From positions 1 to 64,000 of IMG/VR virus record IMGVR_UViG_3300028786_000009: 64,000 bases of DNA. One strand, written 5' to 3'. The translations under genes and the position numbers were made by a program. Shown piece after piece: positions 58,553 to 64,000 of the stretch (positions are counted from its first letter, which is position 1; each line of letters opens with the position of its first letter). Source of the stretch: a virus. The notes under the pieces are model-generated. The model made no database searches. It had not been told where the DNA came from and was given only the letters and a program-made list of their open reading frames with translations.

Positions 58553-61500
58553 ATGGCTAAGAAATGGGCCGAAGTCACCGCGCTGCCGGCGTACCAGGCG
58601 CTCACGCCTGACGACCAGGACGCGGCCAAACAGCAATACTTCGACGAAGTCATCCGCCCGCAGGTGCCGCGCGCCAGGCAGGATGTCGCCTACGAGGAGT
58701 TCAAGGCTGACACCGGCTACGGCGAGCGCGACAGCGCCGAGCTGACGCACCCCGGCGGCCTGGGCTCGGGGCGGCCCGCCTCAAACGATGAGCGCATCGC
58801 CGCGCGCGGGCTGAGCAGCGTCGCACCGCCGCCGCCCAGCACCGGCGTGCTCGCGGGCATCCGCGAGAACGAGGCCGCGCGCAATCAGCGCTTCGGCCTG
58901 GTCGAGCCGCCCGTGCCGCCAGCGCCGGCCCCCGCGCCGCGCGAGGAGCCCAAGCCGTTCAAGGACAAGTTCGAAGCCGTCAACGACGCGGTCGACCGCA
59001 TCGAGATGGGCGCCGACCGCGACAAGGTGTTCGAGGCGTTCACCAAGATCGGCATCAAGCCCAGCGAGATCGAGGCGCGCGGGGTTGCGCTGGGCGGCGC
59101 TGCGTTCAAGCGCTTCGACGCCGCCCCGGGCGTGAAGGCTCCCGTCGGCCCGATGCAGGCCGATGGCGAGATCAAGGCCACGCCGACCCCCAATCGCAAC
59201 ATCTTCGCCGTCGTCAACGACTCGATGATCAACGTGGCCAACGCCGCGGTGGGCACCGTCAAGACGCTGAGCGATCTCACCGGCCCCGACAGCCAGAACT
59301 CCAAGGACCTGGAGCGCTTCATCAAGCAGGGCCAGCGCGCGCAGTCGGAGTGGCAGAAGAACAAGCGCTCCGAGCTGAGCGACTCGCTGGCCGACAGCAC
59401 CGGCCAGGTCGACAAGGCCGGGCGCTACCTGATGCACGCGATCGTCGACGACCCGCTGGCGACGATGTCCGAGGCCGCCGGCAACATCGGCGCGTTCGGC
59501 GCGCTGGGCCGCGCCACCGCGGCGCTCCAGGCCGGCACCGCCACCAAGGCGAGCATGGCGATTGCCGGCATGGCCGGCGCTGGCGAGGTGCGCGGCAACA
59601 TCTGGGACGCGGTCAACGGCAAGTCGGACAAGGAGCTGATGCAGTCCAGCCCCGAGTACAAGAAGCTGCGCGAGGGCGGCATGGACGAGGGCCGGGCCAA
59701 GCGCGAGATCGGCGCCAACTTGCTGCGCAACCTGCCCGAGCTGGTGGCCACCGGCCTGGTGGCGTCGCTGGGCGGCAAGTACGGCCTGGAAGCGCTCGCC
59801 ACGGGTGCGCGGGTGAGCACCGGGCGCATCAGCGGCGCGCTGATCGGCCTGATCGACGAGGGCACGCAGGGCGCGCTCGAGCAGGTGGCCACCAACATCG
59901 GCGTGAAGCGCGCTGAGCCGGGCCAGAAGATCCTCGACGACGTGCTGCTGAACGCAGTCAGCGAGGGCCTGGTGGGTTCGCTTGGCGGCGCGATGACGGG
60001 CGGCAACGCCCACGAGGTGGCGGCGCTCAAGTACGAAGACGCGCGCAAGAAGGGCCTGAACGTCGACCCGCCGCTGTCGAGCGACCCGCCCGATGTGCAG
60101 CGCGCCAAGACGGTGGGCATCTTCGATTCGCTGGCCGCGCAGTACGGCATCCCGAAGGCCGCCGTCGACCAGGTGAAGAAGGCCACCGAAGGCGTGCCGT
60201 TGGAGCAGCTTGGCGGCGTGCTGGCGAAGTTCGCGAGCGCGCTGCAACAGCGCAACCTGACGGGCACGCCGCTGGACGATCACGCGCTGGCCGTGCTCAC
60301 CGCGGGCGCGGTGGCGCCGCCGCCGGCTGAGGGCGACGCCATGGTCTGGCGCTCCAAGGACAGCGAGCAGCCGGTGACGCTGGGCAAGGGCACGGCGGTG
60401 ACCGCCCCCGACGGGCGCAAGTACCAACCGGTGATCGGCTCCAACGGCGTGCCCAGCTTCGTGCCGGCCGACGAGCTGCACCCGCCAGGTGCGAAAACGC
60501 AAACCGCCGCGGCCCCTGCTGCGGCACCGGCTACGGCTGCTGACACTTCGACGCGCGCGGCGGCCACGAGCGCACCGGCCCCTGCACCCAGTGTTTCGAG
60601 GCAAAACGCAACGCCCGCCGATGAGGACTTTTCGGGCCTGTCCGAGACAAGCGCCGAGCCTGCAACCGCTGCTGACACTTCGACGCGCGCGCCGGCCGTG
60701 CCCGATGCCGGCGTGGACCCGGCGACCGGCACCCCGCTGAGCAACGCCGAGGCGGTGGCCGCCGCGCCGGCGCCCGAGATCAAGACCACGGTCGACGAGG
60801 CCGCGCACGCTGCCGCCAGCTCGCCGCTGAACGACAAGAGCGAGCCCACGCGCGCGCAGATCGAGGCCGGCAACGCGCCGCTGGGCCACCCGAAGGTGGG
60901 CGGCATGAACGTCAGCGTCGAAACCGCCGAGGGCGGCATCCGGCGCTCCAAGCCCGGCGCGCTGGTCCAGTGGGCGACGAAGATGGTGGGCGCCAGCTAC
61001 GGCTACATCCGCGGCACCAAGGGCATGGACGGCGAGCAGATCGACGCGTTCGTGAAGCCGGGCACCGACGAGAAGTGGGACGGCACGGTGTTCGTCATCG
61101 ACCAGCTCGACCCGGACAGCGGAAAGCCCGACGAGCACAAGGTCATGCTCGGCTACGCCAACGTGCAGGAGGCCCAAAAGACCTATCTTGCGAACTACCA
61201 GCCCGGCTGGAAGGGCATGGGCGAGGTGCGCGCCGTGCCGCTGGCCAGCTTCAAGAAGTGGCTGGCCGAGGGCGACACCTCGCAGCCGTTCGCGACCCGC
61301 AAGGCCGCACCGAAGGGGAAGCCAAGTGAACCATCACAGCCTGACGTATCAGGCACTGCCGCGCCTGCTGCGGGTGCCGCTGAGCCTGGGAGTCATCAGC
61401 CAGGCGGAAGCCGCGGAGATCTGGGACGTGATGCTGCAACAGCACCCGCCGAACAACCGGGTGGTGCTGCCGCAGCACCTGAAACCGGCGGCCGACCGGC

Positions 61501-64000
61501 TGGAGTTCTACGCGATGGAGGTGACGGCAAGGCTCCAGTAGGCCCGCGCGTCATCGCCCGCGCCGGCACCAGCACCAAGCTGGCCACCGACATCGAGCTG
61601 CGCGCCAACGCCGACGGCACGCTGACACCGATGCACGAAGGCCGCGAGCTGCTCGACTACGACAGCGGCGAGCCGATCTCGCTCGCGGCCGGCACCAGCG
61701 ACAAGGATGCGATCCAGGCGATCCGCGACGCGGGCGCGTTCGGGCGCAAGACGAAGATCTTCCCGAGCGACAAAACCGCCGCGCCGGCACCAGAACCGGC
61801 CGCTGCGGCGAGCGCCGCGCCGGCCCCTGCTCCGAGTGCTACCGAGCCTGCCGCGGCGCCTGTAGCCTCGCCTATGGCGCCCGAGCCCGAGCCCGAGCCG
61901 GCACCGGCACCGGCACCGGCACCGGCACCGGCACCGACGCCCGAGCCTGCGCCAGCACCTGCGAGCGCGCCGGCACCGATCGCTGAAACGGCCCCGAAAG
62001 AGCCCGATTCGGGGCAAAAAGAGCCCGAAACGACAGCGGTTACCCCGCGTACCCCTGTTACCCCTGAACCCCCGTTCACCCCTCCTGCGCCGACGCCCGA
62101 CCTGATCCAGGCGCGCCGCGCCACCCGCGAGCGCGAGCGCGAGGTGTACCGCGACCTGATCGCGCAGCCCGAGATGGTCGGAAAGTCGCTGGACGACCTG
62201 ATCGCCGCCGTCACCGCGCGCACCGAGGGGCCGAACCTGCCCTGGGCGCGGCTGCGCATCGAGCGCCTGGCGCGTGCGCTGCACAAGGCCATCGCCAAGA
62301 ACGCCGTCGAGCTGGCCCGCCAAAAGCACCGCAGCCCCGAGGTGCGCGCCACCGCGCTGGGCGCTGCCGTCACGGCCTGGAACCCGAGCGCCGACATTCC
62401 GGTGGACCAGCACGGCGCGTTCATCGCCGGCTTCGACCACGCGCTGGCCGGCAAGACGCGCAGCACCCTCACCGGCGATCACCCGATCGACCGCATGTCG
62501 GGCTACAAGGCCGCGCAGACCTGGCTCGAAACCGAGGAGGGCGCCGCCTACTTCGAGGGCCGACCGGTCAACAAGCTCCAGAACACCGGGGTCGACCTGC
62601 GCCGCTGGTACGACAAGCTCAAGGCCCAGATGCTGGCCGGCGAGTCGGATGTCGACAAGGCGTGGAAGCAAATCGAGCGCGCCACCGCGCGCGCCGACCT
62701 GTTCGCCCCGCTGCTGCCCGAGGGCGTGAGCCCGGGCTACCGCACCTACATCGAGGGCGGGCTGCGGCGCTTGGTCTCGCCGTTCAAGACCTGGCTGCTG
62801 CACAGCGACGTGAGCCGCTACACCGGCGAGTACGAGTGGGAGAAGAACGCCAAGGCGCGCGAGAAGTCGCAGCTCGACTCGATCATCGCCGGGCGCCGCC
62901 AGCCGAGTGAGCTGTCGAGCGAGGACCGCGAGCGCTTCGCGTCAGAACCGTCCTACAGGGCGCAGTGGCTGCGCGACAAGGCGGACGCCTACATCACCGA
63001 GGTGCGCAAGATCACCGAGCTGCTGGAAAACGCCAGCTCGGTCGACGAGGCCGCGCGCCGCTGGGCCGAGCGCTACGTCACCAACGACACCGACAAGGGC
63101 TACGCCGAGCCCAACGCGGCCGGCCAGAAGCTGGCTGGCGGGGCGATGTGGCTGGGCGGCTGGCGCGAGATCACCGACATGCGCCGGTTCAGCGCCTGGG
63201 TGAAGAACCTGGTGGCCAACGAGGCGACGATCGTGCTGCCCACGCGGGCCACGCCGCTGACGCCGCCCAAGCTGGACCACGTCACGCGCGACGGCCCCGA
63301 CCTGCGCGCGGGCAAGGATGTGACGCCGGCCGAGGTCAAGGCCAAGTTCAGCTTCGCCGACATCGGTTTCGGCAACTGGGTGGGCGCCAAGCAGGACCAG
63401 GACCACCTGAACTACGCGCACGACGCGCTCGCCGACCTGGCCAAGCACTTCGGCGCCCCGCCCGAGGGGGTGGGCTTCGGCGGTGCGCTGCACCTGACGA
63501 TCGGCGCGCTCGGCGCGGGCAGCAAGGCCGCGGCGCACTTCCAGAAGATGCAGCCGAGCCCGAACGGCCCGGTGCCGGTGATCAACCTCACGAACACGAA
63601 GGGCGACGGCACCGTCTACCACGAGTGGATTCACGCCCTGGATCACTTCCTGGGCGGCGACTGGGCCAAGCTGGTGCGACCCGAGATGGTCCGCTACCTC
63701 CAGCGCGGCGTGCTCACGGTCAAGAACGTCGAAGACGAGGCGCGCAAGTTCCTGTTCGGCGGCTGGTACTGGCAGGGCAACAAGAAGCTCGACAAGGTCG
63801 AGGCGGCGGTGCGCGGCGTGCGCCAGGGCAGCGGCATGAGGCGCGCCAGCGCGTTCAAGCAGAACAGCGACCAGCTCGGCGCCGACTACTGGGGAAACGA
63901 GCACGAAATGATCGCGCGCGCCGGCGAGGCGTGGGCTACCGACACCCTCGGGCACACCAGCAACTACCTGGTCAACACCAACTGGAGCGCCGAGGGCAAG
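58553..64000 (+). CDS. Giant polyvalent protein, N-terminal part (InPase-like, LPD1)
   Basis: ATG 58553 (GGAAG six bases upstream); open in one frame to the window end, 1816 codons, 3' end missing. Residues 300-480 are Ala/Gly-rich and membrane-like, as in ejected proteins. Residues about 800-905 fit the inorganic-pyrophosphatase-like domain of polyvalent proteins (YGYIRGTKGMDGEQIDAF, DEHKVMLGYANV). A long linker follows. Residues about 1600-1816 fit LPD1, with HEWIH zincin motif at 1690-1694. It probably continues into the gene at the window start. Between 61326 and 61541 the frame runs through an overprinted gene. Confidence 0.82.
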   Translation, partial: MAKKWAEVTALPAYQALTPDDQDAAKQQYFDEVIRPQVPRARQDVAYEEFKADTGYGERDSAELTHPGGLGSGRPASNDERIAARGLSSVAPPPPSTGVLAGIRENEAARNQRFGLVEPPVPPAPAPAPREEPKPFKDKFEAVNDAVDRIEMGADRDKVFEAFTKIGIKPSEIEARGVALGGAAFKRFDAAPGVKAPVGPMQADGEIKATPTPNRNIFAVVNDSMINVANAAVGTVKTLSDLTGPDSQNSKDLERFIKQGQRAQSEWQKNKRSELSDSLADSTGQVDKAGRYLMHAIVDDPLATMSEAAGNIGAFGALGRATAALQAGTATKASMAIAGMAGAGEVRGNIWDAVNGKSDKELMQSSPEYKKLREGGMDEGRAKREIGANLLRNLPELVATGLVASLGGKYGLEALATGARVSTGRISGALIGLIDEGTQGALEQVATNIGVKRAEPGQKILDDVLLNAVSEGLVGSLGGAMTGGNAHEVAALKYEDARKKGLNVDPPLSSDPPDVQRAKTVGIFDSLAAQYGIPKAAVDQVKKATEGVPLEQLGGVLAKFASALQQRNLTGTPLDDHALAVLTAGAVAPPPAEGDAMVWRSKDSEQPVTLGKGTAVTAPDGRKYQPVIGSNGVPSFVPADELHPPGAKTQTAAAPAAAPATAADTSTRAAATSAPAPAPSVSRQNATPADEDFSGLSETSAEPATAADTSTRAPAVPDAGVDPATGTPLSNAEAVAAAPAPEIKTTVDEAAHAAASSPLNDKSEPTRAQIEAGNAPLGHPKVGGMNVSVETAEGGIRRSKPGALVQWATKMVGASYGYIRGTKGMDGEQIDAFVKPGTDEKWDGTVFVIDQLDPDSGKPDEHKVMLGYANVQEAQKTYLANYQPGWKGMGEVRAVPLASFKKWLAEGDTSQPFATRKAAPKGKPSEPSQPDVSGTAAPAAGAAEPGSHQPGGSRGDLGRDAATAPAEQPGGAAAAPETGGRPAGVLRDGGDGKAPVGPRVIARAGTSTKLATDIELRANADGTLTPMHEGRELLDYDSGEPISLAAGTSDKDAIQAIRDAGAFGRKTKIFPSDKTAAPAPEPAAAASAAPAPAPSATEPAAAPVASPMAPEPEPEPAPAPAPAPAPAPTPEPAPAPASAPAPIAETAPKEPDSGQKEPETTAVTPRTPVTPEPPFTPPAPTPDLIQARRATREREREVYRDLIAQPEMVGKSLDDLIAAVTARTEGPNLPWARLRIERLARALHKAIAKNAVELARQKHRSPEVRATALGAAVTAWNPSADIPVDQHGAFIAGFDHALAGKTRSTLTGDHPIDRMSGYKAAQTWLETEEGAAYFEGRPVNKLQNTGVDLRRWYDKLKAQMLAGESDVDKAWKQIERATARADLFAPLLPEGVSPGYRTYIEGGLRRLVSPFKTWLLHSDVSRYTGEYEWEKNAKAREKSQLDSIIAGRRQPSELSSEDRERFASEPSYRAQWLRDKADAYITEVRKITELLENASSVDEAARRWAERYVTNDTDKGYAEPNAAGQKLAGGAMWLGGWREITDMRRFSAWVKNLVANEATIVLPTRATPLTPPKLDHVTRDGPDLRAGKDVTPAEVKAKFSFADIGFGNWVGAKQDQDHLNYAHDALADLAKHFGAPPEGVGFGGALHLTIGALGAGSKAAAHFQKMQPSPNGPVPVINLTNTKGDGTVYHEWIHALDHFLGGDWAKLVRPEMVRYLQRGVLTVKNVEDEARKFLFGGWYWQGNKKLDKVEAAVRGVRQGSGMRRASAFKQNSDQLGADYWGNEHEMIARAGEAWATDTLGHTSNYLVNTNWSAEGK
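60536..60691 (+). repeat. 24-bp direct repeat in the giant-gene linker
   Basis: A 24-base sequence is identical at 60536-60559 and 60668-60691, 132 bp apart (ADTSTRA encoded in both). It lies in a Pro/Ala-rich linker before the InPase-like domain, and marks a local duplication. Confidence 0.7.
61326..61541 (+). CDS. Small gene overprinted on the giant-gene linker
   Basis: 71 residues from GTG 61326, with GGGGA upstream; frame 0 inside the giant gene's frame 2. NHHSLTYQALPRLLRVPLSLG, then QAEAAEIWDVMLQQHPP, LKPAADRLEFYAME. About 90 percent of its codons end in G or C, as in the other phage genes, while the giant frame loses this bias exactly here. It therefore looks like the main coding frame of the stretch. 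It starts and ends close to the borders where the giant frame regains normal codon use. No family known. Confidence 0.65.
   Translation: MNHHSLTYQALPRLLRVPLSLGVISQAEAAEIWDVMLQQHPPNNRVVLPQHLKPAADRLEFYAMEVTARLQ

Follow-up and report, generated by a model that had tools for sequence, protein, structure and literature searches.

The window analysed here comprises 64000 of the 68758 bases of a virus record, and its last part is occupied by a giant open reading frame (ORF) that starts at 58553 and remains open to the end of the record at 68758 (3402 codons or more). The giant ORF encodes InPase, LPD1, AAA_34 and Helicase_C_4 domains together with a weak methylase match, and its product matches DarB-like antirestriction proteins in PHROG. 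With several unrelated enzymatic and LPD domains combined in one polypeptide, it is a polyvalent (DarB-like) protein. The features of this region are as follows:

58553 to 64000, plus strand: giant polyvalent (DarB-like) ORF, host of the nested gene, open on to 68758
60854 to 61264, plus strand: InPase domain (PF18823) of the giant protein, residues 768-904, E 7.4e-38, directly upstream of the linker
61313 to 61319, plus strand: Shine-Dalgarno-like (SD-like) sequence AAGGGGA upstream of GTG 61326
61326 to 61541, plus strand: putative small gene of 71 aa, nested in the giant ORF in +1, from a GTG start to a TAG stop
61560 to 61765, plus strand: small conserved giant-frame domain (ELR...GTLTP...DSGEP...), directly downstream of the nested gene
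63872 to 64000, plus strand: start of the LPD1 domain (PF18796) of the giant protein, residues 1774-1848, extending past the window end

The small ORF spans 71 codons up to the TAG at 61539-61541 and lies wholly inside the giant ORF in a different frame, with a start and a stop of its own. At 61313 the third-position GC content (GC3) of the giant frame drops from about 0.95 to 0.39, that of the +1 frame goes up to 0.86 in the same stretch, and the phase is back by about 61500; overall, giant-frame GC3 is 0.37 within the nested stretch versus 0.91 elsewhere. The AGGGG of the SD-like site ends 7 nt before GTG 61326, and across the nested stretch the giant frame reads as a Pro/Ala/Gly linker leading from the InPase domain to the small conserved domain. 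The preliminary description of this DNA had pointed out the switch of the GC3 bias out of the giant frame and back, the ribosome site and the linker character of the giant frame, and all three are borne out by our data. The GC3 of the giant frame also dips at 61740-61960, in a Pro/Ala-rich repeat linker with CCGGCA units, where no nested ORF was detected by codon scoring.

As null model for the nested frame, the entire giant ORF was shuffled 1000 times among synonymous codons. The nested stretch was still open in +1 in 694 of these 1000 shuffles (69%), and openness is therefore no evidence for a gene. The codon usage was scored as log-likelihood against the phage's own codon table (nested frame minus giant frame) and is gene-like in the nested frame: the value of +50.6 compares with a shuffle mean of -48.4 (sd 9.2, maximum -15.2), not one of the 1000 shuffles reached it, and none exceeded -5.2 anywhere in the giant ORF. 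A second GC3 switch, located beyond the window at 66252-66599 (L027:8252-8599), carries its own nested ORF of 115 codons in the same giant, and this is the only other place in the giant ORF that scores like 61326-61541. It is again in +1 within a Gly/Ala/Pro linker, with an SD-like AGGAG before its ATG, and the deduced product (115 aa, pI 4.5) has no match in PHROG, Pfam or phages.

For the 71-residue product no family was found in Pfam, PHROGs or NCBIfam, and the profile match to phrog_2996 (E 0.066) is not significant. The search against phage proteins that had been suggested as a check did lead to homologues. Using tblastn against phage records we obtained one weak match (E 0.8) in Vibrio phage VvAW1, which sits in the +1 frame of a linker in a DarB-like gene, and with VvAW1 as starting point, Vibrio phage FGH (E 0.02) and Thalassomonas phage BA3 proved to carry a similar ORF. 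A profile of the Vibrio and Thalassomonas products, from which the window was left out, matches the window ORF at E 7.7e-7, with the next unrelated match at 2.6; the link between window and VvAW1, weak at first, is now based on this later profile evidence and on the shared phase. All ten loci from viral contigs carry the ORF nested in +1. Two uncultured phages (L028 and L029) share the architecture of the window: their ORF begins where that of the window does, at the junction that follows InPase. Their products are 58% identical to each other and 42-44% identical to that of the window, and their giants end shortly after the nested gene. Applying the profile to about 170 loci with InPase brought in L131, L121 and Aeromonas prophages, and further nested copies came from Aeromonadaceae genomes. 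The homologous ORFs encode 60-71 aa, and all phage and prophage copies that we inspected share an open host frame and the +1 phase. Their position varies between linkers: after InPase in the window, L028, L029 and L131, before InPase in Aeromonas and elsewhere in the Vibrio giants. Sequence comparison establishes this phase of nesting for homologues from at least five groups of phages or prophages.

One member of the family, BA3_0004 of phage BA3 (YP_001552273), has been deposited as a CDS. It is nested in +1 like the window gene and differs from it in an annotated N-terminus that is longer (110 aa) than the conserved start implies; in its record, as a hypothetical protein, we saw no function and no remark on the nesting. 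Single-sequence searches of viral contigs found neither close relatives of the product nor relatives of the C-terminal part of the giant, and the family profile found nothing in bacterial genome contigs. Profile matches from Burkholderiales and other genomes lie in frames of about 350 codons and were rejected, as we read them as the tail of a PilT-type ATPase with a similar helical motif. A Delftia-type nested protein (MIQPHLQYGWQMNAQQALRLLRRLGAVSRQDARQ...; L112, L177, L178, L190) displays a family-like motif pattern with a profile E of 6, which is not significant.

Selection was measured in relatives, and our searches yielded no close relative of the window phage. A comparison of two Aeromonas copies (L113 and L192) revealed 6/1/0 differences at the first, second and third codon positions of the giant frame (P1/P2/P3) over 64 codons of the nested region and 12/16/87 over 396 flanking codons (nested versus flanks, Fisher p=1.2e-5), and the same comparison of L011 with L017 gave p=0.0015. 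Over 12 Aeromonas copies the P3 divergence of the giant is 0.178 in the nested part versus 0.438 in the flanks, and in the same stretch the amino acid identity is 0.72 for the nested product versus 0.62 for the giant; such pairwise totals over related copies are not independent, and the statistics given are single-pair tests. In the Aeromonas relatives the substitution counts indicate that the small protein is conserved and the linker is drifting, with the normally freest P3 of the giant almost invariant within the ORF, and both the Aeromonas and the FGH-like relatives show purifying selection on the nested frame. This is the outcome that the preliminary description had proposed to look for, and the case that it had named as refutation, a conserved giant frame with stops or frameshifts in the small frame, was not seen in the homologues. 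In the GC-rich group of the window itself, identities are 0.36-0.58 for the nested and 0.26-0.52 for the giant product; both frames diverge to a like extent, and the sequences are too far apart and too saturated in GC3 for conservation to discriminate between them.

Both product and start are conserved in same-phase homologues. We consider it very probable that the ORF at 61326-61541 is a real small gene, lying in +1 within a linker of the giant polyvalent gene. An SD-like site precedes the conserved start in eight of nine cases, with no clear SD in L131, and the start is directly preceded by a stop of the nested frame in L113 and L121, so that a frameshifted ribosome would have almost no way in. 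Conserved starts, SD-like sites and these stops make internal initiation on the giant mRNA the likely mode of translation. We assume that translation would occur from the giant gene's own mRNA by initiation at GTG 61326 and that a soluble 71-residue three-helix protein would be made beside the giant protein.

Three other explanations have to be weighed against a functional nested gene. In GC-rich DNA, a linker rich in Pro, Ala and Gly might have an open and coding-like +1 frame by accident, which agrees with the openness of the stretch in 69% of the synonymous shuffles. However, the codon fit was unmatched in 1000 shuffles, the same product recurs in the same phase in unrelated phages and relatives display the substitution pattern of a coding nested frame, which makes an accident extremely improbable. 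Alternatively, ribosomes translating the giant frame could slip by a programmed frameshift and stop at TAG 61541, which would yield a truncated giant with a small domain at its end. In the window the nested frame indeed extends without a stop for some 90 codons ahead of the GTG (161 codons from stop to stop) and could be fed by a slip, but a frameshift product would be reachable from the upstream frame only and have no start of its own, and the start position found here is conserved, often with an SD. The stops directly before the start in L113 and L121 and a homologue that exists as a separate gene in Aeromonas also speak against it, and we regard a frameshift as very unlikely. The switch of the GC3 phase out and back is also what paired compensating frameshifts or sequencing errors would produce, in which case the giant protein itself would pass through the +1 frame. 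As the nested frame hits a stop before the giant frame resumes, stops are present in all homologues and the arrangement recurs in independently sequenced phages, the probability of such errors is close to negligible.

The uniform phase of the nested gene can be rationalized from the genetic code. The host frame would read the codon positions of the nested gene in the order 3,1,2, and a host stop would arise only where the third base of a nested codon is T, which is rare in these genomes. In the opposite phase, an NTG codon in front of a codon starting with A would give TGA, at many junctions. With the 3,1,2 reading, a +1 gene in a linker would consequently leave the giant ORF open and turn the linker into Pro/Ala/Gly-rich filler. 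A set of 157 distinct giant ORFs with InPase (among L003-L197 and L027; 474,747 codons in total) was scanned for interior nested ORFs of at least 50 codons with a log-likelihood above 10. This analysis revealed 69 such ORFs in 60 of the 157 giants (38%), all 69 in +1 and none in +2, and 20 synonymous shuffles of every giant produced none above this score. Strong giant-frame coding is present on both sides of each of the 69, which fall into approximately 35 families by blastp, and the ORF at 66252-66599 has the highest codon score of the whole set. SD-like tetramers precede 28 of the 69 scored starts versus 13% at random start codons. As codon scoring is weak in AT-richer phages, where the nested genes of FGH and BA3 score negative, the prevalence is a lower bound there. 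No such nested gene was found in N4 vRNAP or in DarB, DdrB and DarA of P1.

A second nested family ('MNLxxWI...', about 100 aa) is present in 21 phage records (loci include L002:4466-4795, L013:6511-6828, L014, ending at 7109, and L016:6424-6732). The computed phase is +1 in the giant CDS of VvAW1, Atu_ph08, Pavtok, PEp14, LASTA and Mwe-JY07, and scans gave +1 also for the copies of POI1126 and Sinorhizobium phage PBC5. In PHROGs, the family aligns with the C-terminal end of phrog_938. In Pseudomonas phage Itty13 (L238) the deposited CDSs are on the strand opposite to the nested-family match, which suggests that its giant gene is annotated on the wrong strand. We think it probable that the linkers of polyvalent genes are a general store of unrelated small genes, always in +1, the phase that keeps the giant frame open. 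Such genes would in effect be hidden operons for several proteins each, missed by annotation pipelines.

An AlphaFold2 model of the 71-residue product consists of three helices (pLDDT 81, pTM 0.67). Sequence and fold searches of the PDB found no relative; one notable viral fold match, A8HNW3, has 110 aa, the length of BA3_0004, and is probably of the same family. Because the same DNA also encodes a giant protein that belongs to the injected class, one could speculate that the small product is an accessory to this virion protein, produced along with it, that aids its packaging or acts with it after injection, but we regard this function as a rather doubtful guess.

Regarding the origin of the gene, a free-standing relative of 62 aa with a strong SD occupies a syntenic chromosomal site in several Aeromonas genomes and shares 41% identity with one of the nested Aeromonas copies over 64 aa. 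At this conserved Aeromonas site the 62-aa relative (L214, L218-L224) adjoins a gene for a glycine-zipper protein. Nested copies in different linkers and free chromosomal copies imply that the protein was not invented at this site, and the sequence comparisons favour a pre-existing gene carried in the linker over de novo overprinting here. The nested gene would then be of old age and have travelled with linkers or from one to another, and the free Aeromonas copy may be descended from a phage copy and not the reverse. In L039, InPase is followed by the same next domain after a linker of 44 residues and no small gene, which fits either acquisition of the gene by a linker already present or its loss from that place.

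The preliminary description had left two origins for the small gene, whose reality as an out-of-frame gene in the linker is now upheld by codon usage, same-phase homologues and purifying selection in relatives. De novo overprinting, by which the gene arose from the non-coding frame of such a linker, either at this site or once with later shuffling, is in line with a weakly constrained linker frame and with the fact that every phage copy found is nested. As homologous products are found in more than one linker and also as free genes on chromosomes, the evidence speaks against overprinting at this site; a single ancient event followed by shuffling is possible, and overprinting as a whole appears rather improbable to us. 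The other proposal, in which two genes fused and enclosed a pre-existing small gene that was free of stops in its 3,1,2 reading, is unlikely. In its favour, a stop-poor phase accounts for the exclusive use of +1, the giants of L028 and L029 end shortly after the nested gene and P1 keeps small genes beside darA and ddrB. Against it, our searches revealed no relative in which the small gene separates two independent halves, and L039 shows that an intact giant without the gene exists.

Overlapping genes are usually seen as rare curiosities, and gene callers drop them in cellular and double-stranded DNA phage genomes. In one class of phage genes, whose large products are predicted to be packaged and injected, 38% of the cases examined contain one or more hidden genes that are clearly coding, and their phase follows a simple rule. 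This yields overlooked phage proteins to be looked for in existing virion proteomes, some 'linkers' of giant proteins would be explained as shadows of other genes, and the question of overprinting versus gene insertion becomes testable on many independent examples.

Nested phage genes as such are already known, with Rz1 inside Rz and the annotated BA3_0004 as examples. The host ORF of the window belongs, with its InPase, LPD1 and helicase domains and DarB-like matches, to the polyvalent proteins (Iyer et al., 2017, PMC5512222), and a term search of that article returned no passage on overlapping or out-of-frame nested genes. The open literature, a scope mostly without subscription journals and preprints, gave no account of nested genes in polyvalent-protein linkers. 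The Rz1/Rz spanins of double-stranded DNA phages, for which an embedded class is mentioned in PMC9144972, resemble the window gene in that a whole phage gene lies inside another one, in another frame and with its own start. However, Rz1 is a lipoprotein that acts with the product of its host gene in lysis, whereas the window gene encodes a predicted soluble helical protein, and unlike in Rz1/Rz the linkers of the giant virion gene house many unrelated families. Long same-strand overlaps in bacteria favour phase 1 for compositional reasons (PMC2542354); in contrast to these overlaps between bacterial genes, whole genes appear here to be nested in the linkers of one class of phage genes.
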